A stretch of DNA of 64,000 nt from Halichondria panicea (taxonomy: Eukaryota; Porifera; Demospongiae; Suberitida; Halichondriidae), in contig NC_087393.1 in assembly GCF_963675165.1 (NCBI RefSeq), forward strand, positions 3,663,502 to 3,727,501, given 5' to 3'. The notes below the pieces were generated by a model that saw only the letters and a list, made by a program, of their open reading frames with translations, was not told where the DNA came from and made no database searches. Position 1 is the first letter of the stretch. The number at the start of each line of letters is the position of its first letter. The translations under genes were made by a program, and so were the position numbers. Shown piece by piece: positions 661-49,381 of the stretch.

Positions 661-3600
661 TTGATTCGTTCCTTGTGACGTATGCTGACAGAGTGTTGAA
701 GTGTCTGCCTGACATCAAAACCCTCATCTCCCTGCACCAGCATCTATCAAAGGGTGTGGTCAGTGGGTGTGCCCTCGATAAGCTGGACCACAGTGATCAG
801 CTCAAAAACGCTGGTAAAGTTATCCTTTGTCATCGATTCTGTTTCCTTTCTAGAGGAGTCATTCCCGTGGTATGACTCCCGTGGTATGCTTTAGTTTTAC
901 ATGGGAGCTAGCATACATGACTTTTGTCACCGATTCTGTTTTCTTTTTAAGCGTGGTATACATTATTCTGCGTGGGAGCTGGCATACAGTGACAGTTTCG
1001 CGCACACTCAATCGTATCCCTACCCTTCCGCTAATAGAGCTTCAAGAGTCACCAGACCTCCTCTCAGTCTGGCTAGAAGTGCTGCGGTATTACCAGACCC
1101 TCTCTCCCACCATCTTCCTTGTGGCCGGCTACAACCTTACCAAACTACTGCCCACGGTGGGTGGAAAGGGAATTCCCTCTGCCGTTGTCATGCCGACAAT
1201 TCAGCTGCTCACAGAAGCTCCAGTCGGGAGCATTAAGTGGACACAGAAGGTGTGTTTGTGGGAGGAGTTCCGTACCTGTTACTGTGACATTGTGCGTACA
1301 TGTATAACAGTAATTTCTATCGTAATTATAATGACTTACATGTACGTGTTACTAAGCTGTGTTCATTGAAAAGAGAAGAGAGGCACCTGCGCTTTGAGGT
1401 GTAGCCGTAAGATTGCATGTCTTGTGATGTACACAGTATCAGTATTCAACTTAAGAATCGTTTTCTATTGAATCGTAGCCATCAGACCGAAGCAAAACAT
1501 GCCTTGAGGCATTAAGCATTCGGGGTGCTTGTGGGGTTTTTGCTTCAGTAATAAAAAAAAAAATGCATTTAAGATCGAGGGTTACATAGGTATGCATTTG
1601 CATAAGATTGTCGTCTATGTCCTTTGTCATTATTGTTGATTGCCTCCACAGGGAGGGTCAGCGCTGAAGAGTGTTCTGTTGCTCATGCTCAACCCTTCAA
1701 TGGAGATAGCAACAATGGCCACTACCCTTGCTCACAAGGTGAGACAGTAAGTATCCAATACTATGTACGCACCTTAGAAACTAGCTGAATTAGCGTACCA
1801 ATTAATGCTCGATTTTAGGTGCCATTACCAGCTTTTGTGATGGAAATTTATAAGCGCTTTTCAAGCAATTAATGAAAACGCGTTAAGAGTTATAGACATA
1901 ACAAAAGGTGCCTATCTTTTGAGTGTGAGTATGAAGTTAATAAACTATAACCTCAAAATGTCAGTACATGTAGTCAAGTTAGTAGTCTATTAGTGCGTCT
2001 ATAGTGTTGACTTGTTGTTATGTGTACTAACACCAAGAACGAAACGAGAGCTAGAGGGAGTATCGAATTTATGCAAAAGTAACGTGACTTCCAATATTGA
2101 CAATAAATATATTGCTGCCTCGAGGCACAAGTAGGGACTCCGGGCACTCAGATTGGTCAGTTACTAAGCAGGCAAGTAGTCGCGTTGCTTTCCGAATAGT
2201 TACATCTGATCAGAGATACAAAAGAAAGGGGATTGGAAACGACCGCCCACCCTATGTAAAAGGACTGACATCCGGTGAAGCACTCCGTGTAATTATTGCG
2301 CTCGCAAATAATTACATGGAAAAGTTTTATATCCCTGGTTTCTAGCTCTCCTATCCACTAGAGATCACTCAGGGCCTGGGAGATACTTGAGAGAAGTAAG
2401 CTTATACCACTGACAAGCTCTAAGTCCGTTGTCTTTACTCTGTTTCCAATTTTTTTGAGTTTAGCTTGAATTACTCTATGTCAACTTTTCTCTGTCCCTC
2501 CTGTGAAGTCAAAACAGCAAAGGACATTGCTTGACTTGGTTATTATGTATCTAAGTGCTACATAGAATGGCTTCATGCTATAGATAAGCTGTACTGTTCA
2601 AAAACGTTTGCAGTATAGTCCTTCAAACTGCTTTAGTATACTTTTAGACACGCCACGGGCCTGTCCCTCCTACGACTTCATAGTAAAGGCTATTTCTTCT
2701 TGCATAGCATTTATTTGTCTAGTAATAGTGGCTACATGGCTTAGTCGACTTTTTAGAGCTAAATTCTCTTTACTTTTTAGAAAAATCAACATTAAAAATG
2801 ATCAATTTCACTGTTTCTATGTACAGCACATTGTAGAGCAGTCAAGACTGGTAATGAGCATGCTGACTATAAATATAATCCTTTGTAGTTTTAGCTACGC
2901 CCTATAACGCGGAATGCTTCACGCAAAAATTTCGTAAAAATTTCGTTTCCAATCCCCTTTCTTTTGTATCTCTGATCTGATACACGGTACTACGTTCAAT
3001 GCTCCTCCTCTTTTAATACGGGCGCTTGCTAATAAAGTCTGACTGTCGCTGGCCATGAAAAGTCATTATACTTTCATTCTTACATACTAAGTGAAGCGTT
3101 TATGTTATCCACCTGCTCTGGTTCTTCTCGTCTCTAAAATACTAATTGTTTGGGTATGACGCTGTAAAAGCCTGGCAATTGGCAATCGAAAGAATCTTAT
3201 GTTCGAAACCAAATAATATTACCGTATTACTAGAATGTTTTGCGAGCATCAAAACATATGCGAACTTTGCGAGGGTTGATCAATTCGCAACATTAAAAAT
3301 CGCAAAACCTAAATTATTACTAGTAAATACTCACGGTCCTTTGCCAGAACGCAATAGTTAGATTGCAAAGGGCCAACATTTCTGCTGATTTGGCTCATTC
3401 GCACAGGTTTTTCACTCGCAAAATATTCTAGTAATACGGTATACTGTTTACATTAATTTGTATAAATAACATTAGTGGTCTATCACATATCTACATGTGC
3501 ACACTAGAACTAGTTTCTGTTCAATATTGAACAAAAGTTAATATTAAGTCACATTGTTCCATGTTTACGCTAGCCAAGACTTGTAGCCTGCTCTTTGTAC

Positions 3601-6600
3601 TGTGACTTTGAAGAGCACGTTTTTCCCACAATAGTCAATTTTGTTTTTCGTACGTAAAGTAGTAAGCTTATTTAACTCTGCTTCTTGTGCACAAATGACT
3701 TTACTCCACTGATCTTGTGTGCATTCGTACTCCGTGTGATTTTGGTCCTCTGTCTGGTTAAGAAGCGTGACCTTGATGCTACCCAAAAATCTTGGCGTAG
3801 CTTTCACATATATCTTCATGTCTGGTTGGGTCTCTCTCTCGAACTTTTTGACATTAAATGTTAGTACTAATTCGCAGTCAGTATGTTTATAATGTAGAGG
3901 TGGACTATTAAATATATTATCGCCTTTAAGTAGCAAAAGTGGGTCTCGTTTCAAAATGAACGGCTCTTTTTCTGATATTGATATTCTTTTGGAAGAATTA
4001 ACTTTGCTAGAGAGGCTGGTTATAACTCTATCTTGTTTTTCAACTGTTTGCATCAACTCAAGTACTTTTTCTTTTGCACCTTGGAGATGTAGCTTGGAAT
4101 CTTCCTCGTGTTTCTTCATTTTTTTTCTCACCTCTTTTTCTTCACAGCCAAGTTTAGCAAACTTGCATGGAGTCGGCTCAAAATCACATTCAGATCGATG
4201 TCTTTCTATATCTTCTCTGTGCATAGGCTGATTGCATCGTATATTTGGGCACTCAACTATCACTTTTTTGCATTCTTGCGGATGATCTTTAGTGATTGTT
4301 TTGAATTCTCCTGTTTTAGAACAGAGCTCGCATTCGTGTGGTCGACGGGGGCACGCATTTTGTTCGTGGTTTTCTAGGTCTCGACGAAGCAATCGTGTAC
4401 AATCACATTCATACATACATGCCGCTATAGCGTAATCACATTTGTCGTGATGGTCCTTTGCATTGCCCAATTCACCTTCCCATAGACACCCATATTCACG
4501 ATTGTTGCACTTCACCTTCAATCGATTCACATCTTGGTCACCTAAATTATGAGTATGTAAGTTTTTAACCTTAAGAATTATTATTTAGCTTATTTTCTTA
4601 CCTCTTCGATCGGGGTAGGTAGTGAACTCTTGTCGACAGTTAGGGCAAGTCGGATTGCTACTTTTCTGTCTGTGATCGTCTACACATGCACTTGTTGCAA
4701 AATAGTTTTCCACATTCCCCGTGCTGTTGAGCTTGTTTCACAACAGAGTGGCATATCTGACACGTTAAGCTATCTGGAAGTACTTCTATAAACTCGTACT
4801 GGGACCCTTCCATTGCTGAACAAATAGTTCATGCAAGTCGTCTTGTTTTGGTTCAAAAGTTAGTATGTTATCACATGACTTTTTAGGGGTGTACGTTTTT
4901 CTGTATTTCACATGATTATTATTCATTGCCTGTTGATGTTTCGTGCAGTGGGTTTAATTGCTGTAGAGATGTAACAATAAGTTTGTGTGCACATTCATTT
5001 CTTATCGTGTCTCAGTACGCTTGCTCATATCAGGATCCTGAATTTTTGTAGCAAAAGTCTTGTTAGTTTGCTCTGCATTTGGCATCAGCCATTATTCACT
5101 TCGCACGTTTATAGCATTACCAACAATCACATTTCCCGTAATTTCCAGCAAAGATTTTGTAAAAATTATTATTTTATACATAATTATGATTTAATTACTC
5201 GTCAGTAAAAAGCTTGCATTGAGGCATCAGCACATAATTATATAGTATTACTAAATAAATAGTTTGTATTGTAACACAATCGTAAACGTGTTTGTGTAGT
5301 TAGGTATGGCATAATTTATATAGCATTTTATTACAATGGTTACATTGTTCATGTGGTACACTCCAGCCATGGCTTGTCCCCTGGGACTTGTACAACGATT
5401 TGAAAGTACAAATTATCATTCCTCAGGTACTGTGTCGCCTTTTTACTATCGTACACTAGCCTGCTGTGTGCAATGAGGCGGGCCTTGCCCCACCCACTAG
5501 ACCTCTCTCCGCCAACCACTACACGTCCATTTATCTCCTCGTCTTCGTCAGTGGGGAAAGCAATGTTAAACTTGAGATGATTCTTATCATCAATCTGGTT
5601 AATCAGCTCCACCACTATGGTGCCTTTGAACGGCCATGTCAAGGAATTGTCGTTGTCTCCCTTCTCAAGATGGACATAAAGAGAGACGTGTGTATTCTTT
5701 CCAACTCCATTGCCGTTTGGCCAGGCTGCAAGAATCAATCTATAACCACCTTGACTCGAGTAGAAAGGGGGGCTGTAAATAACCTTGTTTTGTCGCTTGT
5801 GCTCGGAGAACTTTGTGAATCGGAAGTATATCGGTGCTGTGTATCTCCTGCAGCTGCCAATGCTTTCCTTAATGGCTTCTATGTCTTTGTTCTGCTGCTT
5901 TATCTGAGCTCTGAACATCTTATCCTGCTCTTCAATCAGTTTAGTCAGCTCCAAAACCTTCTCTTTAGTTTTCTGAAGATGTTGATGGTCGTCTTCCTCG
6001 TGAGCTATCAAATCTCTCCTGGGCAGGCGTTTTGTGCAACCAAGCTCGTTAAATTTGCAGCTGCCTACTTCGAACTGACACTCGGATTTGTGTTTCTCCA
6101 ACTCTGAACGTGGGATGCTGTCTTCACATTTGGTTTGTGGGCAGCGAACTTTAACTCCGGGACAGGTTTCGAGGTGTAGAGATACCCTCTCTGCATATAT
6201 CCCAGGTTCCGTGCAATGTGGGCAAATGTATTGTCGTCTCACACATTCGTTTTCCAGGTGGTTCTGAAGACCTTTGCGAGAAATGCGCACCATTTCTTGA
6301 TTCACGGTGCATCCATTTGGGCAGATGACCTGGCTATATTCGCATTCCTTGGTATGCTCATCTAGAGAACTGAGTGCTCCTGTCCACTGGCAGCCATCAT
6401 TTGCACCTGTGCATCCCACCTTTATCGTCTTGATCTCTTGGTCACCTGTGTAAATGTTGTGTTGCAGGCATTGTATACTGCAGGCCATATCTTCTGTAAC
6501 ATTATCAAGATATATTTTTTGCTATTTCAGCTACCGTACTTCTTCTAGAAGAAATAGCCAATGGCTTATGGGATAAATCTGCGCCTTATTAGAAGGGAGC

Positions 6601-9600
6601 CTCTTTTAGAAGAAGTACTGTAGCTTAAAAGTTACAGCAATGCTGAACACTTTAATACATCAAATCTTAGAACATTGTTTGTGCATGCCTATGTAATTGT
6701 TTGGAGCTCACTCTTTCCATCAAAGAAGGTAATTAGCTGGAGATCACAGTTAGGGCATTTGTTGCTTATCTGTCGGTGCTGAGTCAGACAGCTGTTACAG
6801 AAGAGCTTCCACACTCTCCATGTTGTTGTGGCTGCCTGGCTACAGCTAGACAGATGACACACTTGAGCCCATGAGGAGGCTCCTCCACAAACTGGTAGCC
6901 ATAGCCTCCTCTAACTCTAGTGATAGCCATCTTGGTCAGAAATAATAAATTTTGATTTACATGTGACTATTGTGTTTTGAGGTGACCTTATATAGGTGAC
7001 AGTCAACATGTTAATTGAATTCCTGTGGTTGATTTTTAGATAAAATTGGTGCTTTGGCACAAGCAAGCATAATCGTGTGATTCTTAGTTGCCTTTAATTA
7101 GCTTGCACGAAGAGGTGATTGTACGTTTGCATGAAAAACTTGTATTGAAATGAACACAAACTAGTACTTCAGAAGTGGCAATGCCTTAAAAATTATCTAC
7201 TTCCTTTCTGGCCGCTAATACTATAAGCCACATTCATGACGTATCTAATCCTCTTAAGTTATTAGATACGCAATACATTTGACGTATTATTGCAGTTGGT
7301 TTAGGCTGATGCTAATATGTGTTTACCGTTGTTCTGCTAAGGTTTCGTATACATTTTGAAGCGTGAAGCATATAAATCATAATCATTTTGTTGAGTTTAT
7401 AATTGGTGAGGGTATATAAATTTAAATGTGTTTAGTATATAAATCGTGAGGTGTGGAGTCAGCCAAAACATAATATTACCATATACAGCGTACAGCGATA
7501 CAATAGATCATGCAGAGCCTTTTTTAATAGGCTTTTCTACACTAGTAATACGAAAGTACAGCGTGTCACTCCTTAGGTACTGCCTTTTACTTGAGATGTT
7601 TGCCAGTTCTCTGTTAGAGACAAACTGTTCCTTTCCCCAACCTGTTGTGGTCTTGCCCTCAACCATTTTCCCGCTGACGTAGTCAATATTAGGGAAATGA
7701 ATATCATTGCTGAAGTGGTTGCGGTCTTGTAGCTGATTGAGTATCTCGACTTTTACAGAGCCTTGAAACGGCCAGGTTAGGTATTCGTCATCTTGTCCTT
7801 CTGTAATGGCTAGATATACAGAGACGTGTGTGTTTGCACCCTGGTTTCGACCGTTTGCATAAATCACCAATTGAAATCGATAGCCCGTTTTGAGGTAGAA
7901 CTTCGAACTGGCAAATAGCTTGTCTTGCAGCTTGTGCATGTCGAATTCTCTAAACTTAAGAGTAGTCGGTCCTTTGTATCTCACACAAGTGAGCATGCTG
8001 TGATGAAGATCAGCTAGTACTTTGTTTCTCTGTTTAATGAATACTCTGAACCTTGTCTCCCTCTGTTTGAGGATCAGTGTGAGCTCTAGTACGTTCTCTT
8101 TAGTTAGCTGTAGATGGAGTAGGTCATTTTCTTCGTGCTCCTGTAAATCAGCTAGTTTCAGTATAGCAGGACAGCCAACATCCGCAAACTTGCACTGTAT
8201 GGCTTTGTGCAGGCAATAGTTGATGTGGGTATCAAGGTAGCAACGTTGTATGCTTTGGTTGCACTCGGGATAAGGGCATTGAACTTTAGCCTTTGGGCAG
8301 CTGTCAATATGTAGCGTTGTTATCTTCTCGTATGGTCCCAAGATGCTGCAGTGTGGGCACTGGTGTGAACGGTTTGGGCAGATGGCTGAATGTTCGTTCA
8401 AATCTTTTTGTAGTAGTTTAGCGTCCGACTCGAATGTTTTGCAGTTGTTGGGGCATCTCACGACCTGGTAGTTGCATGCTGTGCTGTGTCTGAGCATAAA
8501 GCCCAGATCTCCAACCCATGGACAGCCATTGACCACATTGCTGCATTTCACCTGTAGGGCCTTCACTTCTACATCACCTATAATACTGGTTATAATAACA
8601 ATAACACGGTACATGTACTCACTCTTTCCATTGTAAAACGTGTTTAGCTGGAGATCACAATTAGGGCATTTGTTGTTTTTCTGTCGGTGCTGAGCCAGAC
8701 AGCTGCTACAGAAGAGCTTCCCACACTCTCCATGTTGTTGAGGTTGCCTGGTTACAGCTAGACAGATGACACACTTGAGCTCACGGGGAGGCTCCTCCTC
8801 AAACTGGTAGTCATAGCCTCCTCTAACTCTAGTGGTAGCCATCTTTGTTGTTTTCGATCATTCATTGACTGTCGTTACATAACTCGGGTTTTTGAGTTGA
8901 CCTTTATTAGTTGCTGTCAACAGTTCCATGTGGTTGATTTTTAGATTGTGGTGTTGTCTGCAAGTGCTGGGCGTAATCATGTGATTCCTTACTTGGCACG
9001 AAGAGGTAATTCCATTCTTACTACACAAATGTGTTAAAGAACTTGACATGTAAATTTTGATCAATCAGTTGTGCACCAAGTGTGTGGAACACCCAAAAAT
9101 TTATAACTTTACCATGCTAACTCCAGTCCTGGCGACGCCTACTATAATCCACATCTGGTACCATATATGCCACTTGATCCACTTGCATAGTTTGTTTTTA
9201 GATACACTACTGGTACATGTAGCAGCAGGTCAGGTTTATATCGAGGGTATACATTTTCGTGTTTTTCTCTGATTAAATGTGTACTGTGAATATGCATACC
9301 TACGAATATGAATATCGTATGCATGCATGCGGCAAAAGGCTAATATAGTCCACACAAATTTAATCTGCAAGTGTAAAGCAACATGTAAGTCATAATCAGT
9401 TTGTCCTAGGTGTGATTTCTAATTAACAAGGATATATATATATATATAACTGTGAGAGCTTGTCAAACGTAGGTGTGGAGTCAGCAAAACACATTACCAT
9501 ACACAGCAACACAATAGATCATTGTCTGTCAAACAGAGCCTTTTTTACAGGCTTTTCTACACTAGTAATACGAAAGTACAGTGTGTCATTTCTTAGGTAC

Positions 9601-12600
9601 TGCCTTTTACTTGAGATGTTTGCCAGTTCTCTGTTAGAGATAAATAGATCACTCCCCCAACCTCTTGTGGTCTTACCCTCAACCATTCTCCCACACACAC
9701 AGTCATTGAGGAAAGGAATAGCAATGCTAAAGTGGTTGCGGTCTTGTAGCTGATTGAGTATCTCGACTTTTACAGAGCCTTGAAACGGCCAGGTTAGGTA
9801 TTCGTCATCCTGCCCTTCTGTAATGCCTAGATATACAGAGACATGTGTGTTTGCACCCTGGTTTCGACCATTTGCATAAACCAACAGTTTAAATCGATAG
9901 CCTGTTTTAAGGTAGAACTTTGGACTGGCAAATTGCTTATCTTGCAGCTTATGCATGTCAAATTCTCTAAACTTAAGAGTAGTCGGTCCTTTGTATCTCA
10001 CACAAGTGAGCATGCTGTGATGAAGATCAGCTAGTACTTTGTTTCTCTGTTCAATGAATACTCTGAACCGTGTCTCCCTCTCTTTGAGAATCTTTGTCAG
10101 GTCTAGTACATTCTCTTTAGTTAGCTGTAGATGGAGTAGGTCATTTTCTTCGTGCTCCTGTAAATCAGCTAGTTTCAGTATAGCAGGACAGCCAACGTTT
10201 GCAAACTTGCACTGTACGGCTTTGTGTGGGCAATAGTTGATGTGGGTATCAAGGTAGCAACGTTGTATACTTTGGTTGCACTCGGGATAAGGGCATTGAA
10301 CTTTAGCTTTTGGGCAGCTGTCAATATGTAGCGTTGTTATCTTCTCGTATGGTCCCATGATGCTGCAGTGTGGGCACTGGTGTGAACGGTTTGGGCAGAT
10401 GACTAAATGTTCGTTCAAATCTTTTTGTAATAGTTTAGCGTCCGACTCGAGTGTGTTGCAGTTGTTGGGGCATCTCACGACCTGGTAGTTGCATGCTGTG
10501 CTGTGTCTGAGCATAAAGCCCAAATCTCCAACCCATGGACAGCCATTGACCACATTGCTGCACTTCACCTGTAGGGCCTTCACTTCTACATCACCTATAA
10601 ATTAATAATATGATTTAAGCCTAATGAAGGCACCGCGAGTGCTGATGCCACAGTGGATGTGTCAAAACTACATAACATAAAGCTACTATAGCTGCTAATA
10701 AACATGATGAACATTTTTGCCTAGGGAAACTCAAATCGGAGTGATTGACCACACGATTGTTACTACAAAGGATGCCCAAAGTCTGTAATTAATGGCTACT
10801 GCATCAGTAGAGCATTGCAGCTAACTACTAAGTAGAGTAGTAACACTACATGGAAAGCTTTTGCTACGCACTATTCTGAAAAGGCTGCAATGGCATTCCA
10901 AGTAAGCAGAACTAGGCATAACTCCTAGAAGCCTATAAAAACTCTTCTTGCCTTTCATTGATCCTTGGGCAGACACTGACACACACACAAACTCACTACC
11001 GTATACCGCGCTTGCGTATACACATGCCTAGGCATAATAACACGGTACATGTACTCACTCTTTCCATCAAAGAAGGTGATTAGCTGGAGGTCACAGTTAG
11101 GGCATTTGTTGCTTTTCTGTCGGTGCTGAGTCAGACAGCTGCTACAAAAAAGCTTCCCACACCCTCCATGTTGTTGGGGCTGCCTGGCTACAGCTAGACA
11201 GATGACACACTTGAGCTCACAAGGAGGCTCCTCCACAAACTGGTAGTCATAGCCTCCTCTAACTCTAGTGGTAGCCATCTTGGTTTTCCTTTAGTCACAT
11301 CACATGATGCTATTCATTATCAGATCATCATGAATATTCATACACTCCTGCATGATGTTATTCATAGCATTAGAACAACATGTACAATCATGTAAGTAAA
11401 TTATTAATGTTTAAGAACTGTTGCCAAACTAGATAAATACATGGGTTAAAAAAAAAAACATAAATAATTATAGTACAGTTTTGCGCTATAATAAATGTGT
11501 ATACATGCACCAGTTAGTTCTATGTGTACGTGTGTGTTTATGTGTCCTCGAAACTTCACTTCACATGTCGCACTCTAGCCATGGCTTGTACTCGGGTAGC
11601 TGCGTTGCTACTCTAAACACAAGTTTGTTGTCTTTGAGGTACTGACAGTTCTTACGAGACTTGTGCCCAAGGTGCCTGTGAGCAATGAAGTGTGTTGTGC
11701 CCCATCCCCTTTTCCTGACCATGCCAGTGACACGCCCGCTAACTTCCTCGTCTTGCGGAAACTTGATGGTGTATTGTTTGTGGTTCTTGTCTTCGAGCTG
11801 GTTGAGTAACTCGATGATAACTGAGCCTTGGAAGGGCCATGTGAGGGAATCATCGTTAACCCCCCTCTCCACATGGGCGTACACTGAAACGTGTGTATCT
11901 TCTCCTCCGTCAAGACCGTTAGTATTAACGCTGATGCTCAACCGGTAGCCTTTCGAACTGGAGTAAAAACTGGGACTGTGAAATGGCTTGTTGCCCACTT
12001 TGTACTTTCGATATTTCGTGAGCTCGAACGTCTTGGCTTTATTTGGAGGTGCAGCTGTTAGCGAGTTGATCTTATTTTCTTGTTGCTTGATTTCCTCTGT
12101 GAACTTCACCTCTTGTTTCTCTAGTTGGTCCATAAGCTCCAGCACCTTCTCTTTTGTGCTCTGTAGGTGCAGTCCCTCATCATCTTCGTGTGTTTTCAGC
12201 TCTCTCTTGGGAAGTTCATGATCACATCCAAACCTTGCAAACTTGCATGATGTTCGTTGAAACTCACACTCAGATTTGTGCCTCTCCATCTCACATCGCA
12301 GCACCCTCTCTCCGCATTCTTCGTTTGTACATTCGAGTGTGACCTTTGGGCACCGGTTGAGGTGCAGGTTCATTCTCTCCTCGTATTCACCCATTTCTTC
12401 GCAGTATGGACACTTGTACTGTCGTCTTGGACACTCTGTGTTGATGTGTGTCTCCAGCTGCCCCCGCTGAAGCTTGGTAATCTCTTGGTTGCTCTCACAC
12501 TTGTTAGGACATAGCAGGATAGCGTGGTCACACCTCTTCATGTGGTCTTCAATAGAGTAGAGCTCTCCCTCCCATGCACAGCCATTGGGCTGATTTTCAC

Positions 12601-15600
12601 ACTTCACCTTCAGTGTCATCACATCTTGAGCACCTGTAAATAATTGATATGGTTTGTATATTGCGTAGCTATATAGAAGAGTACAAGTGTAGTTGTTAGT
12701 GTTTAAATTTTGGCGGTTAACTTTGACTGACCACGCCCCTTTATAACTACTTGGACACTAGTGTACGTGTAACTCACTTTTTCCATCATTGAATGTCTCC
12801 AAGTGTTGTCTGCAGTGAGGGCACTTTGGGAACACAAAGCTTGTTTCTCTGTATTCAGTAATGCAGCTGCTACAGAAGAGCTTGCCACACTCTCCATGTT
12901 GTTGTGGCTGCCTGGTTACAGCTAGACAGATGACACACTTGAGTCCATGAGGAGGCTCCTCCACAAACTGGTAGTCATAGCCTCCTCTAACTCTAGAAGG
13001 TGAATCCATCTTGGCTAGCTTCTTTTGACTCTTTTGACTCTTTTCTATTGGGTGAAACAGCATACATAGTATTATTCATAGGCATAGCTATCTAAACTGA
13101 TTGTAACTACCCACTAAGTACTTGTATTCATTCCTTAGCACTATCAAGTTACACTGTTTTGTATGGCCTGCTGGCTGCTTGGAATGCTTCCAATATCTGC
13201 TACAATAGTTTGACACACGTACACCACGTGTTTAATGTTTACTTGAAAGGGCAACTGGCTCTCACCTTGGTAAACAATGGAGTGTTTTTGTTTCAGTACA
13301 CCATCTTTTATGTTTCAACTTCCTAAATTGCTAATCAGTAGTGCTTCGCTTGTAGTAGAGTCAACTGTTCCAGTAGACTCAACAGTACTTAACTACTGTA
13401 CTAATTATTAATACTATTAGTAGACTCTAACTGTACTATAATTATATTGGCATGTACTGTGTTCATGTTTTATCAAGATACGCTCAGTTATCAGTTTATC
13501 CATGTTGTACGTGGCATCAACTTTATTATGTTGTGAAATTCACAGTTTAGATTTTACCTCCCACCTTTATTCTTGGGATCTGACTCTTACACAGTTTACA
13601 GCACAGTTCCTTTCGATAGTGTGTTCCATTTTATGTCAGTCAATCTGAAACAATAGCAATAGTCTAGCTATGTACTATGCATGGTTGCAAGAAGAAACCA
13701 ACAATGCTACCTTGTTATTAGACTCTCTTTACTGAAAGTTAACACTATGAGTGTGCTCTAGCTAGCTAGCTATATTATTATATCTAGCCACTTCACATTA
13801 AACATGAACATCTTGCCAATGTTGAATATTACTTGTTATGGCTTTGCAAAAGTACAAGTACATTCCTACAAAAGCTTTTAGGACAAGCATTTATCCAGGA
13901 AGACTTGTGTTGATATTTAAATTAACACTCTGTAACTGTAACATGCTTACCTAAGAAAATCTTTCAGTTACACTGCACTGCACTAACACTGCACTGTTTA
14001 TTGAACATTGTCTTCCTGTTTGCTGCAGCTGCTGATTTCCATGGAGATGTTCAAAGGATTAGACTGTGAGGTGGACCTGCTCCTGATGAGTCTAAGGGAG
14101 TGCCACACCTACTCTGTTGTTGAGTTTGTGGGTGGGGCTATATTGGAGGCACTAAAGGATGGAAAGGTGCCAAATAGCACAACGGGGACCACCAGTCATG
14201 ATAATTCAATGGAAGCAGTAAAAGAAGAAATGATGAAAGAATCACTAGCTGTCTGTCTCTCAATTTCACTGGACGAAATACTATGTAAAAACAACCTTGA
14301 TTTTTTCGCATTCAAATACATATTTTTTTCGTAATGTAGCTGGTCCTTGTGTTATTCCTGATGCTATTGTGTCACATGATGGCCACGCGGCCAACCAGCA
14401 GCCTAATGGAGTGTTTCCACTACTGCCGGCACTTTTAGTAAACAGCGGTGAGTACTTTATATACATGCAGGTATTGTTTAGTGAATTAACCTGACCAAAA
14501 TGATGATCACAAATAAATAACCTGATGGGTGTGGTCACCACCCCCACTGAGGGCTTGCATGTATTACCTGATTGGTCAAATTTGGTAAATTAATGTATGT
14601 ATCATGTGACTGTACATGTAGCTAAATTGTCGTTTACATGTACACAGATCAAGAAGAACTGAATAGATTCAAAGAGAATTTTCTACAGAAGCTGTTGCTG
14701 GTCGACCCTACAATTGCCAAAAGAATTGCAAAGCCATTATCTCGAGCAGTTTTGACGAGAGCTAATACTTGCATTACCCTTATAGCAGGCTGTGTGCATT
14801 GGGATGAGCATGTTACCTTGGAAATTAATGCTGAGGCTAAAAGTCAGCTGCTTGAGATGTGGAATAGTCTTAGTGCAGGGAGTGCAGATTACAAGTGCTC
14901 TGTTAGGGCTGTCTCTATGTTACTATGGCAACTCTATCAAGAGGAGGAGGTGATTTCATAGTACTCATCACCATTACTATTTACTGCACTTACTTGTAGC
15001 TAGCTGCATTACGCTTAGGTTACACACTCCACTTTCTTTATTATTCAGGAAGATGTGGCCCTGGTTGAGTTTCTGTTTGACCTACTCTCAGAAGCACTGT
15101 TGATACTAAGGACTGTTCCTATTGAGCACAAAACCATCTTCATTAACGTGTGTGAAAGCCCCTTAATTAGAGATTGCTTCCTTTCGGAGAAGATGCTCCA
15201 TACATCCAAAAGAAAACAAACGAAGAAAATGAACCCAATCGCCCTTCTATTCAGTTCCAGAATTGGACAGCTTCTATCCATCGGTTTGAATAGTTTTCCC
15301 GTTCTTAAAGATTCAAAGTGTCTTCAGGCCTGTCGAGACAAGGTCTTCACTGCAATCACAGTTCATTTGAGGTGCCCTGATTCCACAATAGGTAAGCAGT
15401 AGTTTATAACTACAGTAGCTTTATTCAGACCAAAATGATGAATACCGATGATCAAGAACCTGATGGGTGTGGTCACCACTCCCACTGATGTCTAGCGTGT
15501 ATTACCTGATTGGTCATTAAAGGATTCTTACTGTGTTAGTAGACAGATGTGGTACTGTTGAGTTCATGCACACATAATATATACCTGCAGATGAGCTCCT

Positions 15601-19379: not shown

Positions 19380-19419
<40 letters not shown>

Positions 19420-28189: not shown

Positions 28190-28625
28190 GTAGAACTGAC
28201 GAAAAGTTTTTAAAAGAATGCTGATTCAGCAACAATTGTGCACAGTCAGCAATAATTAGCCTCGATTCCAGGCCGCACTGAAGATTATGTGCATAATTAT
28301 TGCTGAATCAGCATTATTTTTGTCAGCTCTCTAGTGCTCACTAGTTACAGTTGTGCCAAGAAGTATTGTTTAGTGCTAGTAGTTTCAATGCTTAGTAAGC
28401 GTGTAGTAAGGATGGAATTACCTCTGCATGCCAAGTAGAGAATCACATGATTACGCTCAGCACTGCAGACAAAACCACAATCTAAAAATCAACCACATGG
28501 GAATGGTAGTCTCGATTTCCAGCCTCTAAAGTATGGGAGGGCGTGGCCAGACTAATGGAATGGACAGCAAAAAGGTCAACTCAAAAACCTGAGTTATGTA
28601 ACGACAGTCAATGAAAACAACAAAG

Positions 28626-29960: not shown

Positions 29961-30511
29961 TCTATTGTGTCGCTGTACGCTGTATATGGTAATGTTATGT
30001 TTTGGCTGACTCCACACCTCACGTTTTATATACTAAACACATTTAAATTTTATATCTACCCTCGCCAATTATAAACTCAACCAGAGACAAAATGATTATA
30101 ATTTATGTAATTATGCTTCACGCTTCAAAATGTATACAAAACCTTAACAGAACAATGGTAAACATATATTAGCACCAGCCTAAACCAACTGCAATAATAC
30201 GTCAAATGTATTGCATATCTAATAACTTAAGAGGATTAGTAGCTTAATTATACGTCATGAATGTGACTTATAGTATTAGCGGCCAGAAAGGTAGTAGAGT
30301 TGGCTACGGTAGATGATTTTTAAGGCATTGCCACTTCTGAAGTACTAGTTTATGTTCATTTCGATACAAGTTTTTCATGCAAACATACAATCACCTCTTC
30401 GTGCAAACCACAGGAATTCAATTAACATGTTGACTGTCGTCTATATAAGCAAAACACAATACATGTAGTCACATGTAAAATTATATTCAAAATTTATTAT
30501 TTCTGACCAAG

Positions 30512-32092
30512 ATGGCTATCACTAGAGTTAGAGGAGGCTATGGCTATCAGTTTGTGGAGGAGCCTCCTCATGGGCTCAAGTGTGTCATCTGTCTAGCTGT
30601 AGCCAGGCAACCTCAACAACATGGAGAGTGTGGGAAGCTCTTCTGTAACAGCTGTCTGACTCAGCACCGACAGAGAAGCAACAAATGCCCTAACTGTGAT
30701 CTCCAGCTAATCACCTTCTTTGATGGAAAGAGTGAGCTCCAAAAATTACATAGGCATGCACAAACAATGTTCTAAGATTCGATGTAAGTGTTCAGCATTG
30801 CTGTAACTTTTAAGCTACAGTACTTCTTCTAAAAGAGGCTCCCTTCTAATAAGGCGCAGATTTATCCCATAAGGCACCATTGGCTATTTCTTCTAGAAGA
30901 AGTACGGTAGCTGAAATAGCAAAAAATACATCTTGATAATGTTACATAAGATATGGCCTGCAGTATACAATGCCTGCAACACAACATTTACACAGGTGAC
31001 CAAGAGATCAAGACGATAAAGGTGGGATGCACAGGTGCAAATAATGGCTGCCAGTGGACAGGAGCACTCAGTTCTCTAGATGAGCATACCAAGGAATGCG
31101 AATATACCCAGGTCATCTGCCCAAATGGATGCACCGTGAATCAAGAAACAGTGCACATTTCTCGCAAAGGTCTTCAGAACCACCTGGCAAACGAATGTGT
31201 GAGACGACAATACATTTGCCCACATTGCGCGGAACCTGGGGTGTATGCAGAGAGGGTATCTCTACACCTCGAAACCTGTCCCGGAGTTAAAGTTCGCTGC
31301 CCACACCCCGAATGTGAAGACAGCATCCCACGTTCCGAGTTGGAGAAACACAAATTCGAGTGTCAGTTTGAAGTAGGCAGCTGCAAATTTAACGAGCTTG
31401 GTTGCACAAAACACCTGCCCAGGAGAGATTTGATAGCTCACGAGGAAGACGACCATCAACATCTTCAGAAAACTAAAGAGAAGGTTTTGGAGCTGACTAA
31501 ACTGATTAAAGAGCAGGATAAGATGTTCAGAGCTCAGATAAAGCAGCAGAACAAAGACATAGAAGTCATCAAGGAAAGCATTGGCAGCTGCAGGAGATAC
31601 ACAGCACCGATATACTTCCGATTCACAAAGTTCTCTGAGTACAAGCGACAAAACAAGGTTATTTACAGCCCCCCTTTCTACTCGAGTCAAGGTGGATATA
31701 GGTTGATTCTTGCAGCCTGGCCAAACGGCAATGGAGTTGGAAAGAATACACACGTCTCTCTTTATGTTCATCTTGAGAAGGGAGACAACGACAATTCCTT
31801 GACATGGCCGTTCAAAGGCACCGTAGTGGTGGAGTTGATTAACCAAATTGATGATAAGAATCATCTCAAGTTTAACATTGCTTTCCCCACTGACGAAGAC
31901 GAGGAGATGAATGGACGTGTAGTGGTTGGCGGAGAGAGGTCTAGTGGGTGGGGCAAGGCCCGCCTCATTGCACACAGCAGGCTAGTGTACGATAGTAAAA
32001 AGGCGACACAGTACCTGAGGAACGATAATTTGTACTTTCAAATCGTTGTACAAGTCCCAGGGGACAAGCCATGGCTGGAGTGTACCACATGA
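30512..32092 (+). CDS. TRAF-like gene B': intact inverted-duplicate copy of gene B
   Basis: Exon 1 is 30512-30731 (RING, MAITRVRGGYGYQF), donor GTGAGC; exon 2 is 30996-32092, after acceptor TTTACACAG. Zinc fingers begin at CTGANNGCQW, then a coiled coil (QDKMFRAQIKQQNKDIE) and a MATH domain ending KPWLECTT. Unlike gene B the RING exon is open. An ATG at 30953, inside the intron and in frame across the acceptor, could start a RING-less form of 379 residues. Lys replaces the RING His, as in all paralogues here. Confidence 0.9.
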
Positions 32093-32308
32093 ACAATGTA
32101 ACCATTGTAATAAAATGCTATATAAATTATGCCATACCTAACTACACAAACATGTTTACGATTGTGTTACAATACAAACTATTTATTTAGTAATGCTATA
32201 TAATTATGTGCTGATGCCTCAATGCAAGCTTTTTACTGACGAGTAATTAAATCATAATATAATAATTTTTACAAAATCTTTGCTAGAAATTACGGGAAAT
32301 GTGATTGT

Positions 32309-32909
32309 TATGGGGGGTGATCAGTGCCAAAACCTCCAGCTCTTTGGTTTCAAGTCAATGCAAATATATATGAGAGTGTCATTGTAAAACTAACAAAGCT
32401 TATCATTTGCCATGCAGCGTTATTTGTATGTAGAACTTCTCATTTGTATGTAGAACTTTCATCGTGTGTAGAACTTCACCATGCAAATAAGAGTATCATT
32501 TATATGTAGAACTTCACCATGCAAATAAGAGTATCATTTGTATGTAGAAAATCACCATGCAAATAAGAGAGAGCGTGTCATTTGTATGTAGAACTTCACC
32601 ATGCAAATGAGAGTATCATTTGTATGTAGAACTTCACCATGCAAACAAGAGAGAGCATGTCATTTGTATGTAGAACTTCACCATGCAAATGAGAGTATCA
32701 TTTGTATGTAGAACTTCACCATGCAAACAAGAGAGAGCATGTCATTTGTATGTAGAACTTCACCATGCAAATGAGAGTATCATTTGTATGTAGAACTTCA
32801 CCATGCAAACAAGAGAGAGCGTGTCATTTGTATGTACAACTTTACCATGCAAATAATTTTAGTACTAAATAAAAAGAACTGGAGGTTTTGGCACTGATCA
32901 CCCCCCATA
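32309..32909. mobile_element. G2: TATGG-ended element with internal minisatellite, 6-bp TSD GATTGT
   Basis: The 31-bp inverted ends start TATGGGGGGTGATCAGTGCC and are flanked by GATTGT on both sides (32303-32308 and 32910-32915). The left arm has one copy of this site (complement at 5123-5128) and no element. The interior is an array of roughly 37-45 bp units containing ATTTGTATGTAGAACTTCAC and CATGCAAA(T/C). No coding capacity is visible. Confidence 0.85.
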
Positions 32910-33224
32910 GATTGTTGGTAATGCTATAAACGTGCGAAGTGAATAATGGCTGATGCCAAATGCAGAGCAAACTAACAAGACTTTTGCTACAAAAATTTAG
33001 GACCCTGATATGAGCAAGCGTACTGAGACACGATAAGAAATGAATGTGCACACAAACTTATTGTTACATCTCTACAGCAATTAAACCCACTGCACGAAAC
33101 ATAACAGGCAATGTGATAATAATCATGTGAAATACAGAAAAATGTACACCCCTAAAAAGTCATGTGATAACATACTAACTTTTGAACCAAACAAGACGAC
33201 TTGCATGCACTATTTGTTTAAGCA

Positions 33225-34450
33225 ATGGAAGAGCCCCAGTACGAGTTTATAAAAGTAGATCTACTTCCAGATAGCTTAACGTGTCAGATATGCCACTCTG
33301 TTGTGAAACAAGCTCAACAGCACGGGGAATGTGGAAAACTATTTTGCAACAAGTGTGTAGACAATCACAGACAGAAAAGTAGCAATCTGACTTGCCCTAA
33401 CTGTCGACAAGAGTTTGCTACCTACCCCGATCAAAGAGGTAAGAAAATAAGCTAAATAATAATTCTTAAGGTTAAAAACTTACATACTCATAATTTAGGT
33501 GACCAAGATGTGAATCGATTGAAGGTGAAGTGCAACAATCGTGAATATGGGTGTCTATGGGAAGGTGAATTGGGCAGCGCAAAGGACCATCACGACAATG
33601 TGATTATGCTATAGTGGCATGCATGTATGAATGTGATTGTACACGATTGCTTCGTCGAGACCTAGAAAACCACGAACAAAATGCGTGCCCCCGTCGACCA
33701 CACGAATGCGAGCTCTGTTCTGAAACAGGAGAATTCAAAACAATCACTAAAGATCATCCGCAAGAATGCAAAAAAGGGATAGTTGAGTGCCCAAATATAC
33801 GATGCAATGCACAGAGAAGATATAGAAAGACATCGATCTGAATGTGATTTTGAGCCGACTCCATGCAAGTTTGCTAAACTTGGCTGTGAAGAGAAAGAGG
33901 TGAGAAAAAAATGAAGAAACACGAGGAAGATTCCAAGCTACATCTCCAAGGTGCAAAAGAAAAAGTACTTGAGTTGATGCAAACAGTTGAAAAACAAGAT
34001 AGAGTTATAACCAGCCTCTCTAGCAAAGTTAATTCTTCCGAAAGAATACCAGAAAAAGAGCCGTTCATTTTGAAATGAGACCCACTTAAAGGCGATAATA
34101 TATTTAATAGTCCACCTCTACACTATAAACATACTGACTGTGAATTAGTACTAACATTTACTGTCAAAAAGTTCGAGAGAGAGATCCAACCAGACATGAG
34201 GATATATGTGAAAGCTACGCCAAGATTTTTGGGTAGCATCAAGGTCACGCTTCTTAACCAGACAAAGGACCAAAATCACACAGAGTATGAATGCACACAA
34301 GATCAGCGGAGTAAAGTCATTGGTGCACAAGAAGCAGAGTTAAATAAGCTTACTACTTTACATACGATAAACAAAATTGACTATTGTGGGAAAAACGTGC
34401 TCTTCAAAGTCAAAGTACGAAGAGCAGGCTATAAGTCTTGGCTAGCGTAA
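33225..34450 (+). pseudogene. TRAF-like gene A': intact RING exon, broken zinc-finger/MATH exon
   Basis: RING exon 33225-33438 is open (MEEPQYEF, QHGECGKLFC). The second exon, 33499-34450, is broken relative to gene A: a 1-nt deletion near 33597, an 8-nt deletion near 33807, a 1-nt loss in an A-run near 33910, and an in-frame TGA in place of CGA near 34076. A 9-nt deletion near 34087 adds to this. Only the last 84 codons, including the divergent MATH end, are open again. Gene A has the opposite damage (broken RING, intact body). Confidence 0.85.
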
Positions 34451-34743: not shown

Positions 34744-36131
34744 TAAGATTAACTTTTGTCCATTATACATAATATTGTACAGAAACTAGTTTTAGTGTGC
34801 ACATGTAGACATGTGATAGACCACTAATGTTATTTATACAAATTAATGTAAACAGTATACCGTATTAGTACAACCAGTAGGTTAGCACAACCAGTAGGTT
34901 GTACCATAGATGTAGGAGAGAGGGATTGGAAACGGAAGTGGGCCTCGGAAAACATCCGCGCCTCGCTTTCTTGTTCTCTTTTCTTGAGGAAAACTCATTG
35001 CATAAGCAGTGAAACAAGAGGGAAAGAGACACGATCAACAGTGTGTCGGTACATGGTAATAGTAAGGAGAATGTGCAGAGCTAGTGGTATTGGATACTTG
35101 TTTCCCAGTAGATATAAAATCATCAGAGGATGCTTAGTTCCCTGAAATTGTGAATGTATTTGTGACTGTCAGAGGCTTCTCTTTTGCTGCCAACGAAAAA
35201 GAAAACCATCAAGAAGTCCACTAGTTTGAGGCAATAACCATGATCATTCACACGACAAGATACATAATACACCATGTAACTTTCTTAATAATTGTTTTCA
35301 CTTTTGATGAATCAATTGTACAAAGTTTCTATATATACTAGGCTGGTGAGCATACATTTCAATTTCCAATTCATTAAGTATAATTACATACACTTGGAGA
35401 CAGTAAAACACTCCACAGCACTGCTAGTTGTTTTCTAAGTGTAAAACGAGTGGGATCAAACCGAACAACATTAACAAAAACTTACACGATAAAAATGATT
35501 ATTACAGCTATAATTATGATTAGTTTAGCACTCTAATCAGACAGTCTTAGATGGAGAGAAGCTGGTGAGGTATACAAGGGTGTATATATAGCCGGAACAG
35601 CCGATAACATTTACGAGGGCGGTGACGTGTAGGGGTGTAGAGAGGAGGGGTATTCTTCTGTCTTCTTTTCTTCAGCGTACTCATGGCTTGCGAGGTATTG
35701 CTATATAAAATATAGATGAAACAGCATTTGTAGTAGTTAAATATCTCAGGCCTACAGGCCCTTCACCACAATCTACTACCGGGCCAATAACAATTATGAG
35801 GTAAAAATAGATGACTACACATTCATGCACACAAAAGCTATACATCCACCTGATCCAAAACTAATGCTCTTGGGGTGATCACCAATCATAAGGGAATGTA
35901 TGCCTAAAATTAAAATTTCTGTAACGCTTAGCGTATTCCCAAAAAAGCGATCTTTAGTGGTGCTCTTTAATTCAACTTTTTTCTAGCACTAAATTCTACC
36001 AGCTGATGTATGACTAATTTTCTTTGGCTTGGGGTGATACCACATGATTTACCAACAAGCATATTGAAGTATACGACCTAAACATTAATCATTTCAGAGA
36101 AAAAGGGATAAATGTGTACAATACAAGATTA

Positions 36132-37420
36132 GGCCACTCCAAGTGACACTCTGGTTTCTGGTCCTGAAGTTTTTCTAATTGCATGCGGGCGTATGGCGCG
36201 CCGTGTGTTTCAATAACAATGTCTGCATATACATAGGAGTGTCCTGGTGTGAATATACAGACATAGCATGCACGTGCAATGATCGCCTTATGCAGTGATC
36301 ATGTCTGCACATGCAACCATTAGTCTCTGCACATGCAGTGATCATGTCTGCACATGCAGTGATCATGTCTGCACATGCAACCATTAGTCTCTGCACATGC
36401 AGTGATCATGTCTGCACATGCAACCATTAGTCTCTGCGTGTGCAGTGATCATGTCTGCACATGCAACCATTAATCTCTGCACATGCATGCAGTGATCATG
36501 TCTGCACATGCAACCATTAGTCTCTGCACATGCAGTGATCATGTCTGCACATGCAACCATTAGTCTCTGCACATGCAGTGATCATGTCTGCACATGCAAA
36601 ATGTGTTCCAGCCGAGTACTTCAATGGCAGATTCGTCTTCATCCATGTCCATATCATCTATTATATCCATCATTAATTTTTAATACATCTTTGATACACG
36701 TGCTTTAAATAGAGCTGCTGCATCAGGTCAAAGTATATGTTTCTCAATGGGACTCAGGTACACCTATACTGTACTGCATGTGCAGAGATTAATGGTTGCA
36801 TGTGCAGACATGATCACTGCATGTGCAGAGACTAATGGTTGCATGTGCAGACATAATCACTGCATGTGCAGAGATTAATGGTTGCATGTGCAGACATGAT
36901 CACTGCACACGCAGAGACTAATGGTTGCATGTGCAGACATGATCACTGCATGTGCAGAGATTAATGGTTGCATGTGCAGACATGATCACTGCATGTGCAG
37001 AGACTAATGGTTGCATGTGCAGACATGATCACTGCATGTGCAGACATGATCACTGCATGTGCAGAGACTAATGGTTGCATGTGCAGACATGATCACTGCA
37101 TAAGGCGATCATTGCACGTGCATGCTATGTCGGTATATTCACACCAGGACACTCCTATGTATATGCAGACATTGTTATTGAAACACACGGCGCGCCATAC
37201 GGGCGGGCGGCTTTTCTCATTATGTCATTATCAATTTCACCTTATGAATCTCATTATTTTGCAAATGAATATCATTATCACACTATTTTTGTACCGCATG
37301 ACCATTCTGCGCATGCGTAGTAGAAATAATGAGATAGAAATCCAATAATGAGATAGAAATCCAAGAATAAAATCTGATGCGGGCGGTGGACCAGAAACCA
37401 GAGTATCACTTGGAGTGGCC
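36132..37420. mobile_element. H3: Harbinger-like MITE, TSD TTA, carrying G1
   Basis: Inverted ends GGCCACTCCAAGTGACACTC are flanked by TTA (36129-36131 and 37421-37423). It lies inside E4 and is itself interrupted by G1 (36192-37199). It is reversed relative to H2. Confidence 0.85.
36192..37199. mobile_element. G1: foldback element with minisatellite arms, 6-bp TSD CGGGCG
   Basis: Ends start TATGGCGCGCCGTGTGTTTC and are flanked by CGGGCG (36186-36191 and 37200-37205); the uninterrupted H2 sequence supports the duplication. The two arms (about 36192-36600 and 36770-37199) are mirror images made of a repeated unit with TCTGCACATGCAACCATTAG and CAGTGATCATG, so the element can form a long hairpin around a centre of about 170 bp. 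Open frames over the arrays are artefacts of the repeat. Confidence 0.85.
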
Positions 37421-38062
37421 TTAAACTTACCTAAATTCAATGAAGAAGATAGTTGCAACGGTAAATAGAGCTTGAATAATGGTTATTCACTATCTATATA
37501 AAGCACAGTTGCACTGGATACTGGAAAACTTGACAGAATACTAGTGACAACCTAGATTTGCAATAATCTCAGTTACCTGCGAAGTTCCTGGGGAATAGAT
37601 TAGCCCTCATTAAGCGAGGCGCGGATGTTTATCGAGGTCATATGTGAAGTACATTGAAATCTACTTCTGTTTCCAATCCCTCTCTCCTACATCTATGGTT
37701 GTACATAGGATTGACAGTGCAGTTGTGTGTTTTCAATTATTGCACAAATTTTGACTCGTGTTTAGACTGCTCTATTTCTGCAGGGAAGGGCCACAGCAAG
37801 AAACTGAGTTGACAGATAGCTTAGTTAGCCTTTTATCTGTCTAAATGTGTGAAATTATAGTCAATGAATATTCTCATGCATTACTATTGATATTTGAAAA
37901 ATTGCGCTATTTTCATATTTCACCGCGTTTCGTCTGACTGACTAAGTAAGTTAGTAAGTAAGTTAGTAAGTAACTTTCTTGGAAAGAATTTCCTCCTTGT
38001 ACAGACATGTTCAGAAGATTCTAGATACAGCCTCTAGTCGACTAGAACCCGGACCATGGGCG

Positions 38063-43240: not shown

Positions 43241-43254
43241 TAATTGATTGGCTG

Positions 43255-46355: not shown

Positions 46356-46374
46356 TTTCTCCATTAATTGATTG

Positions 46375-46710: not shown

Positions 46711-46957
46711 TGCAACTAAACTAATAACTAAAACTTAATACTTTTTGTTGTTTTTTTGACAGGACCTGCATTAAAACCCACACTGTGGATGCAGCATTTC
46801 CTGTCCAAATAAAAAGTTATCTATCTATCTAACCCCGAATAGCGGACACCTCTAAACTCCGAACAACACTTGCACGAAAGATACATGGTTTCATAGGAAT
46901 GGGTGTGGTTAGGAAGGGCTGGTATGAAAAACCAAATCAATGGGTGTGACAGTTATC

Positions 46958-49381
46958 AATTAACGTCATCATTGCCCAGATGAATGCTCTCTAGAAACTG
47001 TGTTGGAAAAACAATACCTAATGTGAACTCTTAAATTATTGAAAACTAGTTGAACTTGAGTAGTGTAGTCAAAATTGCCATATAATGATGATGCTGTGAT
47101 TGATTCAGGATAGACACACTTTTTATGTGAGTAACATCCATGGTACTTAGCTAGGTAAGTTACTCATTAAATATGCCGTAAAACGTATTTTTCGTAGCAC
47201 TGACGACGAGGACATCTGACTGTTGATGTATTATACAAAATGTGGCTTATTTTGTGCTCACGTCTCTCTTGACTAGTACGTCTCGACTCTCAATGAATTG
47301 ACAGGAACAATTTTACATGTTATGTGGGAATGGCACTCAACATGTTATATACCCAATTAAAAAAGTGTCAACTATTATTCAATCAGTCTGATTTTGATTT
47401 GCTGGTGGTGGTTGGTGGACAGGGGATGCCCAAGAACTTGCACACCTCGGCCTGTACTCTCTGGTGCTCTCTGTGAGGGGGCGGTATGTGATTGGTCAAC
47501 ATTCCACATAGACCTACTACTGTATAGCGCGAAATATTTGAGGCACTTAAATTTCGTGGAATCGCCTTTAAAAATAATACATTTCGTGGGCAATCTTTAG
47601 AATTTTCTTGAACACTAGTTACTGCAACTAGGAACCACTACATGTAAAACTAACGGAATCAGTTCAGTATTTAGATCGTAGTGTAGTCAAAATTGCCATA
47701 TAATTATTGCTGTGATTGATTCAGGATAGACACACTTTTTATGCCTCGATGCGCATGCGCAAGCGAGCTATACGGTAGTGTGTTTGTGTGTGTCTGTAGA
47801 CTGCTACAGCTGCTCAAGGATCAATGAAGTGCAAGTAAGAGTTTCTATAGGCTTCCATGCAGTCATGTTTTCGTGGATTTTAATTCGTGGATTTACAAAA
47901 TAATGCTAGAGTTATGTCTAGTTTTGCTTACTTGGAATGCCATTGTAGCCTTTTCAGAAGAGCATGTAGCCAAACTTGTTTACCGAGTGTTGCTACTCTA
48001 CTAAGTAGTTAGCTCTACACTAGAACGCTACCTATTAGTAGCTGCAAGAGTGAGAAGAGAGCTGCAAGGCTCTGCTGATGGCATCATAGATAGAGTAGAG
48101 AGGGATTGGAAACGGAAGTACCCTCAAAGTACCATCCGTGTATCTCCGCGGTTTTAATCGAGGCTTACTTTTTAACACAAGGGCTAAACATGAATAATTC
48201 ATGAGAATTGTCTGTAAGAAGTCCACGAGCAGTTCTGCTGTTAAACATAAACTTTCATTTCATACTTAAGGCCATTTGGGACACAGGACACTATTTAGTT
48301 ACACAGCCTTAGCTATATCAAAGGTACTATAGGAACACAAGCATGAAAAAGCGCTCTGTGTATCTCTAGCTACTTCACGACAATCAAGATTATATTTTCT
48401 TCGTTTCCAATTGATACTTACTATCAGGGGACATGTGATTCAGTAATGGGGGTAGCTCTGAGATGTATGCATTGGACACAACAAGTTTCCCAGGATTTTT
48501 GCGGGAGTTATGAGGAGATACACAGATGGTCCCAGAGCCACTACGTAGACTTCATTGTAAAACATTACGTGAATCACTTCCGTTTCCAATCCTCTCTACT
48601 CTATATATGATGGCATAGACTTGAACTTTTGCCATCGATCGTTTTTAACAACAATCATGGTCGATCATTACCCACTCTTTGAGTTTGCATGCATCAAATT
48701 GAAAAAATGTTCATCATGTGTATAAAATTAAGCTTTATGTTATGTAGCCTTGGCATCTCCACCGAGGCATCAGCACCTGCGGCGCTTTCATTATAACATT
48801 ACCCTTCCACTTAGGTATTATAACTAGCGAGGTTTCTCATTAAATACGACACGTAAAAAGTATTTTTGTAGCACATAGCTGGATGCAAGTATACACGACG
48901 CGGAGGACATCTGACTGTTGATGTATTATACAACATGTGGTTTATTTTGTGCTCACGTCTCTCTTGACTAGTACATGATGCATTTCTTGACGGCCTACAT
49001 GTAGAACTAACGGAAGCAGTTCAGTATTTAGTTCTAGAACTGTAATTATGATAAATAATGGCTTTTCTACTTATGTAGATCTAGCCAAGCTATTAAAATG
49101 ATGTGTAATGATAAGTACAAACGTTTGCCATACGCTGCCAGGTACGGAGATGTCTTTCTCATAACTACACACAGATGCATAAATTAACATTTCAAAACTA
49201 CACTTTGTATAGGCCATTATGTGAATTGCATGGACCATACAACTAATAATTAGACATACGTTTTGTTCCCGAACGTGCACTGAGCGGTGAGGGAGAGAGT
49301 GAGCCCCGACAGGAACACCAAAACAACCTGAATTGGTGCAATTCCTAAATGACCACTTATCTGCACATAATTACACTATAC
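46958..49381. other. Gene-poor stretch with direct repeats and E5
   Basis: I see no gene. Two direct repeat pairs are present: about 47064-47127 with 47681-47742 (GATTGATTCAGGATAGACAC), and about 47150-47278 with 48823-48976 (GGACATCTGACTGTTGATGT). Element E5 lies between the members of the second pair. Confidence 0.6.
48085..48609. mobile_element. E5: 525-bp DNA element, 7-bp TSD ATGGCAT
   Basis: Inverted ends CATAGATAGAGTAGAGA lead to GGGATTGGAAACGGAAGT, with two small differences at the right end. ATGGCAT flanks both sides (48078-48084 and 48610-48616). No coding capacity. Confidence 0.85.

Follow-up and report, generated by a model that had tools for sequence, protein, structure and literature searches.

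Matched ends of short P-superfamily transposons in the sponge Halichondria panicea differ between subfamilies and change together

A stretch of 64,000 nucleotides of the Halichondria panicea genome (contig NC_087393.1 of assembly GCF_963675165.1, positions 3,663,502 to 3,727,501), here called the window, carries six short mobile elements, E1 to E6, whose outermost bases differ from one element to the next and agree between the two ends of each element. This raises the question of what these elements are and how the two ends of a transposon can diverge from those of its relatives and still match one another. We found that the six elements are non-autonomous transposons of the P superfamily, that the outer bases belong to subfamilies, and that both ends are altered in concert as new subfamilies arise. 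The reading that we favor, at a probability of roughly 0.6, is that a subfamily starts with an exchange during gap repair or with the copying of one end onto the other, and that its matched ends are inherited thereafter.

To delimit the elements, the whole window was scanned for CA..TG ends flanked by an exact 7-bp target site duplication (TSD), inverted matches being required at 15 or more of the 20 outer bases. This led to the identification of seven matches, namely all six elements described with exact 7-bp TSDs in an earlier note on this DNA and one at 32617-32773, which sits in a tandem array and was taken as false. The earlier note had also described the ends within each element as agreeing almost perfectly: over the first 20 bases the agreement is complete in E1, E3, E4 and E5, but it drops to 19 in E2 and 18 in E6. 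Likewise the start CATAGAT holds generally, except at E1 and at the right end of E6. Taken alone, CATAGAT occurs in the window at chance level (12 times against 11.1 expected), and the conserved core of the ends, with up to three mismatches, occurs 22 times against 9.7 expected, a count that none of 100 shuffles attained. The signal is the combination of the pattern with inverted ends and a TSD.

The ends are terminal inverted repeats (TIRs) of about 30 bp, each composed of a fixed tip, CATAGAT, a spacer of 10-16 bp and a nearly invariant core, GGATTGGAAACG or a sequence close to it. In the 54 ends of 27 distinct elements the spacer read inward is 85% purine, position 13 is an A in 54/54, and the tip and spacer together measure 17-23 bp. 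The "private 10-mer" of the earlier note was therefore overstated, as the spacer is purine-rich, has a fixed A and is common to the members of a subfamily. At positions 1-17 the fraction of mismatches between left and right ends is 0 to 0.22; between elements, the variable positions give 0.27-0.69. Left-right matching fades 11-14 bases beyond the start of the core, about 30 bp from the tip, and further in the two ends are unrelated. The TSD consensus of 43 copies, among which one locus is possibly counted twice (L062 and L068), is GTnnnAC with a T at position 2 in 78%, both orientations counted. An apparent 8-bp TSD at L037 (TCACGTGA) was judged to be an internal motif. E4 has a second core type, which is that of the autonomous element L045, and its right half is 90% identical to a stretch in L047; the two related core types have one tip in common. 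Of note, among the 27 distinct elements 10 have the motif CACGTG within bases 26-75 of one end only and one (E3) has it on both sides, far above the frequency of this motif in the window; it is perhaps a promoter or a host-factor site.

The assignment to the P superfamily comes from searches of the 131-Mb genome to which the window belongs, and from which all regions with L numbers were fetched. The pattern CATAGAT-N(6-14)-GGGATTGG matched 1513 times (756 + 757) versus 4 times for the reversed control. The first 20 regions fetched were facing pairs of pattern matches bounding elements of 0.5-6 kb, and 17 of them have exact 7-bp TSDs. A genome search with the profile of the P-type RNase H domain (PF21787) gave 46 matches (best E 7.8e-27), and 20 regions around such matches were fetched (L031-L050). 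In eight of these (L031, L032, L033, L034, L039, L045, L046 and L049) the match lies inside a complete CATAGAT element with an exact TSD and well-matched ends. A ninth enclosing element, L036, came from a looser scan and has ends unlike in length by one base, and a tenth, L018, was among the pattern-pair regions. For the other 11 of L031-L050 no enclosing CATAGAT element was found, L035 having one beside its transposase. Stops are present in some of the transposase matches (L032 and L046). A Pfam scan of four transposase frames detected PF21787 in all four (E 5.3e-14 to 1.8e-27) and PF21789 in a downstream frame of L031 (E 2.1e-7); these four frames gave no match to a THAP domain, but the genes look exon-split, and N-terminal exons may be missing.

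A PF21787/PF21789 transposase within such ends, a TIR of about 30 bp starting with CA and a 7-bp TSD together identify E1 to E6 as short, non-autonomous P-superfamily transposons. The earlier note had guessed at a P-type transposase and proposed a search for an autonomous member; the guess proved right, and ten complete CATAGAT elements with exact TSDs enclose the P RNase H domain. The six elements are presumably mobilised by the transposases of these 4-6 kb relatives, which are observed in the same genome, and the transposase probably reads the tip and the core. The window contains no transposase: tblastn with six transposase frames and five proteins of a second gene, described below, returned one trivial match of 26 residues (E 0.005). 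Another 6-kb CATAGAT element with an exact TSD, L016, carries an open frame of 1332 amino acids (1652-5647, minus strand), which may be the gag-pol of a nested retroelement.

We then asked to whom the outer bases belong. With the E1 interior (696 bases) as query, 486 candidates were obtained, and the 40 scored places, E1 included, are 99-100% identical over the full length. The left-end pattern of this family, with a CANAGAT tip required, matched 172 ends; among the 100 of these that were listed, hand counting gave 66 with end a, that of E1 (at least three with point changes), 26 with end b (CATAGATTGAAAAGGAAGG) and 8 with a c-like end (CATAGATAGAACA...). The E3 end, including its inner GAGATCACGTG, occurs at 46 places in the genome. 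In the E6 family, sampled as 20 of the 40 listed matches, all copies have the L008 end or variants of one to a few bases, 4 of the 40 ends have the form of E6 itself, one A shorter, and 19 of the 20 copies have an exact TSD (L095 and L097 have one TSD and may be a duplicated locus). Ends and interiors are likewise common within the groups L001/L006/L019, L002/L016, L003/L017/E5, L007/L011 and L033/L034. In all, 35 elements (32 with an exact TSD) comprise 27 distinct end pairs. These common ends and TSDs show that each subfamily has its own spacer and that copies inherit both ends by transposition. The earlier note had set its interpretation against subfamilies with common outer bases; this is largely what we find, but the subfamilies are many rather than few.

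Inheritance would be all there is to explain if the spacers simply marked old lineages whose two ends were identical at the start of each lineage and never changed in concert. The sharing of ends by subfamily in the E1, E3 and E6 families and the independence of recent changes at the two ends agree with such an account. Independent change, however, predicts a left-right distance at least as large as the distance between subfamilies, and the observed one is far lower. The summed left-right edit distance over the 27 distinct end pairs, drawn from elements with a pattern match on both ends or with at least 14 of the 20 outer bases in agreement, is 25, whereas shuffled partners gave a mean of 139.5 and a minimum of 103 (0/3000 as low as 25). 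When the shuffle was restricted to the 800 of 1404 cross pairs that themselves pass the 14-of-20 filter, the mean was 109.7 and the minimum 79 (0/20000 as low). The comparison of end identity within and between elements suggested in the earlier note thus shows the two ends of one element to be far closer.

The E3 family points in the same direction. Thirty-six of its 46 ends form 18 complete pairs, paired by hand, and the core variant is concordant in 18/18: 16 pairs carry TG, the changed core, on both sides, two carry GA, the usual one, on both, and none is mixed, the 10 unpaired ends (5 TG, 5 GA) being uninformative. In L001, L006 and L019 one and the same end matches both ends of E3 (45 bp, 91%), and the other end matches them over only 25 bp; these three elements have the outer end of E3 and carry the CACGTG-bearing stretch at one end only. 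In the E3 founder, a tract of at least 41 bp was thus probably copied from one end to the other. Together with the shuffles, the E3 family shows that the formation of subfamilies involves parallel change at the two ends. The concordance already strains the account by inheritance alone, and so do sister subfamilies that have the same left and right interiors and differ alike at both ends. Within the E1 family the a/b and b/c differences (four events each) are identical at both ends, the aligned change from b to c being three substitutions and one insertion, and c has one extra one-sided change. We therefore regard lineages without concerted change as improbable.

Two further E1-family elements, L058 and L065, have end pair b and interiors that are 95.8-97.0% identical to those of five c-end elements but 90.0-93.6% identical to those of eight other b-end elements (ranges read from the matrix, with L057 and L069 classed by their left end and the poorly aligned L054, L055 and L056 set aside). 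In a tree of the interiors, built without L054, L055, L056 and L068, L058 and L065 fall in a clade with the c elements (support 92/96), apart from the other b elements. End pair and interior are thus discordant in these two, which speaks for an exchange. Separately, six c-type ends in one orientation, spaced by 267-268 bp, were observed at G000:C15:462269-463632, apparently a tandem array of which a transposon end is part.

A quite different explanation is that each copy makes its own ends alike, by conversion from end to end or by pairing with a copy-specific transposase, as the earlier note had suggested. The two ends of an element do mostly agree, but the changes seen in single copies are not those expected. 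In the E1 family, where both ends were readable, seven changes are one-sided (L051, L052, L058, L059, L064, L067 and L062/L068, apparently one duplicated locus) and none is at both ends; the 20 loci are a non-random sample, the first ten having been chosen for a deviating left end, and L053, L054, L055, L056, L057 and L069, with the second end absent or decayed, stand outside this count. In the E6 family 8 of the 20 copies have identical ends over 34 bases and 12 have changes, none of them at both ends except the shorter form of L119, found in E6 and L012 as well. Homogenisation copy by copy was accordingly rejected in these two families, where newer changes are one-sided, and we consider it, or a private transposase, very improbable in general. 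Copy-specific pairing gives way to ends inherited from a subfamily founder and later changed one at a time, and end-to-end conversion is supported for founders only, as in the 41-bp ends of E3.

Selection for symmetry was considered as another route to matched ends: the synaptic complex would need equal spacers, and only copies with compensating changes would found subfamilies. The length from tip to core is indeed the same on both sides in 24 of the 27 distinct pairs. Unequal pairs have nevertheless spread, among them L033/L034, for which six further loci have an RNase H match of the same score, the c ends, and the pair of L020, which is listed a second time in the genome. Single-end changes also occur in E6-family copies with exact TSDs, although these may postdate insertion. 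Such selection thus seems to us unlikely, if somewhat less so than lineages without any concerted change.

Several observations weigh against founding by exchange or copying. In 13 of the 27 distinct end pairs the two ends are unlike at one or more bases, and a left-right difference is fixed in some mobile subfamilies (L033/L034; c; L073 with L082): the ends of L033/L034 differ at two positions and yet spread, c elements have an A at one end and a G at the other in 5/5 complete, hand-paired cases, and the ends of L073 are unlike with a matching TSD. The matching is therefore not strict. The 92/96 clade lies under the star threshold of the tool, with weak branches inside, and the c elements alone form one group in 42% of bootstrap trees. 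The end labels need two changes on the interior tree, which is the minimum, and b may be ancestral with a single change to c. No donor lineage in which c ends enclose an unrelated interior was found, L071, the one further c end whose inside was read, having the same interior. Finally, the 41-bp matched stretch of E3 exceeds the 17 bases of the P-element cut discussed below. Even with a single change from b to c, however, both ends change alike.

Gap repair after excision is the most likely route of such concerted change, if the position of the cut can be taken from the Drosophila P element. In Drosophila, gap repair can put another P element at the site of the one that left. Cleavage by the P transposase takes place 17 bp within the TIR and produces 17-nt tails, according to the passages that concern it (PMC7776569), and the relevant part of the work on Anopheles gambiae cites ectopic repair templates for P elements (PMC1562414). 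Since one strand is cut 17 bp inside the TIR, both donor flanks would retain the outer bases of the departed element. Repair of the gap from a related element elsewhere would then place the end pair of one element around the interior of another, and a copied tract running from one end into the other would yield longer identical ends like those of E3.

Table 1. Positions of the six window elements and of representative second-gene frames; second-gene frames were also recorded at 15 further loci.
Feature	Position	Strand	Length and type	TSD	Remarks
E1	window 2211-2974		764 bp, non-autonomous	ATCTGAT	end CAGAGATACAAAAGAAAGG on both sides; tip CAGAGAT
E2	window 21514-21860		347 bp	ATCACAG	1 of first 20 positions unlike between ends
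E3	window 25184-26714		1531 bp	CTTGGAG	ends identical over 41 bp, CACGTG in each
E4	window 26938-28189		1252 bp	GTAGAAC	second core type (GTGGATGTGAAAC)
E5	window 34905-37697		2793 bp	GTTGTAC	inverted 43-bp tandem arrays within
E6	window 48085-48609		525 bp	ATGGCAT	right end with CATATAT tip and 1-base deletion
Second gene	L031 6496-7521	-
Second gene	L033 1216-2343	+
Second gene	L039 1932-2891	+
Second gene	L045 6938-7999	-
Second gene	L049 6165-7151	-

Inspection of the autonomous relatives revealed a second reading frame of about 320-380 amino acids, placed tail to tail with the transposase (Table 1). Matches to it (E <=1e-4) are present in 20 of the 21 transposase loci (L018 and L031-L050), L048 being without one, and in 20/20 the main match and the transposase lie on different strands; these loci include near-copies (L033/L034 and L049/L050), and several frames are broken. 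The proteins have the motifs RYxAGYV, DRGGLF and WITIRGFS in common, and identity to the L031 protein is 27-33% for four others and 23-46% for 13 others. A Pfam scan found no family above cut-off. A link of the protein to the C-terminal domain of P transposases is conceivable, the one match to PF12596 being at chance level (E 0.21). Comparison with PDB sequences gave nothing usable, nor did a search for THAP9_C in the genome, for which control genomes gave no signal either. The structure model is all helical (pLDDT 76), and a PDB fold search with it gave nothing usable (best match E 0.7). Among the papers surveyed by title and beginning of the abstract, none deals with this second gene. A bolder version of the founding by exchange would be a two-gene branch of P elements, with a transposase and a conserved convergent protein, whose outermost 17-20 bp or so form a paired cassette exchanged as a set, being the remnant of the staggered cut on the donor flanks. 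We offer this version tentatively, as a possibility on the doubtful side.

Other observations concern the window itself. The interior of E5 contains, at 36190-37201, 43-bp tandem arrays that are inverted, with arms of 298 bp that are 97% complementary, and four pieces of E5, about 1.4 kb together, have 91-95% identity to L017. Long reading frames recur in inverted orientation at 3565-12757 and 28602-34450, with E2 to E4 in between; they may encode TRAF-type zinc-finger/MATH proteins.

Several features of these elements recall known P-superfamily transposons. The TIR of the Drosophila P element also starts with CAT. In the passages that treat it, the P element of Drosophila melanogaster has a 31-bp TIR and an RNase H transposase, and its 17-nt staggered cut would take in the tip and the greater part of the variable spacer found here; its TSD, in contrast, is 8 bp, and these passages on P describe no second, convergent gene (PMC7776569). 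The P elements and P-type miniature elements (P-MITEs) of Anopheles gambiae similarly comprise many coexisting subfamilies and short derivatives, with ectopic gap repair proposed and one composite MITE in the sections concerned, but they have 8-bp TSDs and TIRs of 27-31 bp, with two clades separated by 6-8 mismatches (PMC1562414). The P-like Pdre2 of zebrafish has a TIR starting with CATA, though of 13 bp and with an 8-bp TSD, as given in part of a preprint (PMC10983969).

The closest parallel is Galileo, a Drosophila member of the P superfamily with a P-type transposase, a 7-bp TSD, subfamilies defined by their TIRs and matched TIRs. Its TSD consensus is given in the passage concerned as GTANTAC (PMC4168063), against GTnnnAC here. 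In D. mojavensis, the sections on TIRs describe TIR-defined subfamilies with 98-100% TIR identity within a copy, and chimeric copies in which paired TIRs of one subfamily surround the center of another (PMC3573991). The TIRs of D. mojavensis Galileo, however, average 668 bp, whereas they measure about 30 bp here and 41 bp in E3. As far as these sources go, the kind of behavior is thus already known, and the short scale of the TIR appears to be the difference here. Concerted change of the ends, described in Galileo with its very long TIRs, is found in this sponge in TIRs of about 30 bp, and the 1513 ends of one strict pattern in a single genome allow the exchange tract to be set against the 17-nt cut. 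Should the second gene prove to be a real partner of the transposase, it would add an unexpected component to P elements.

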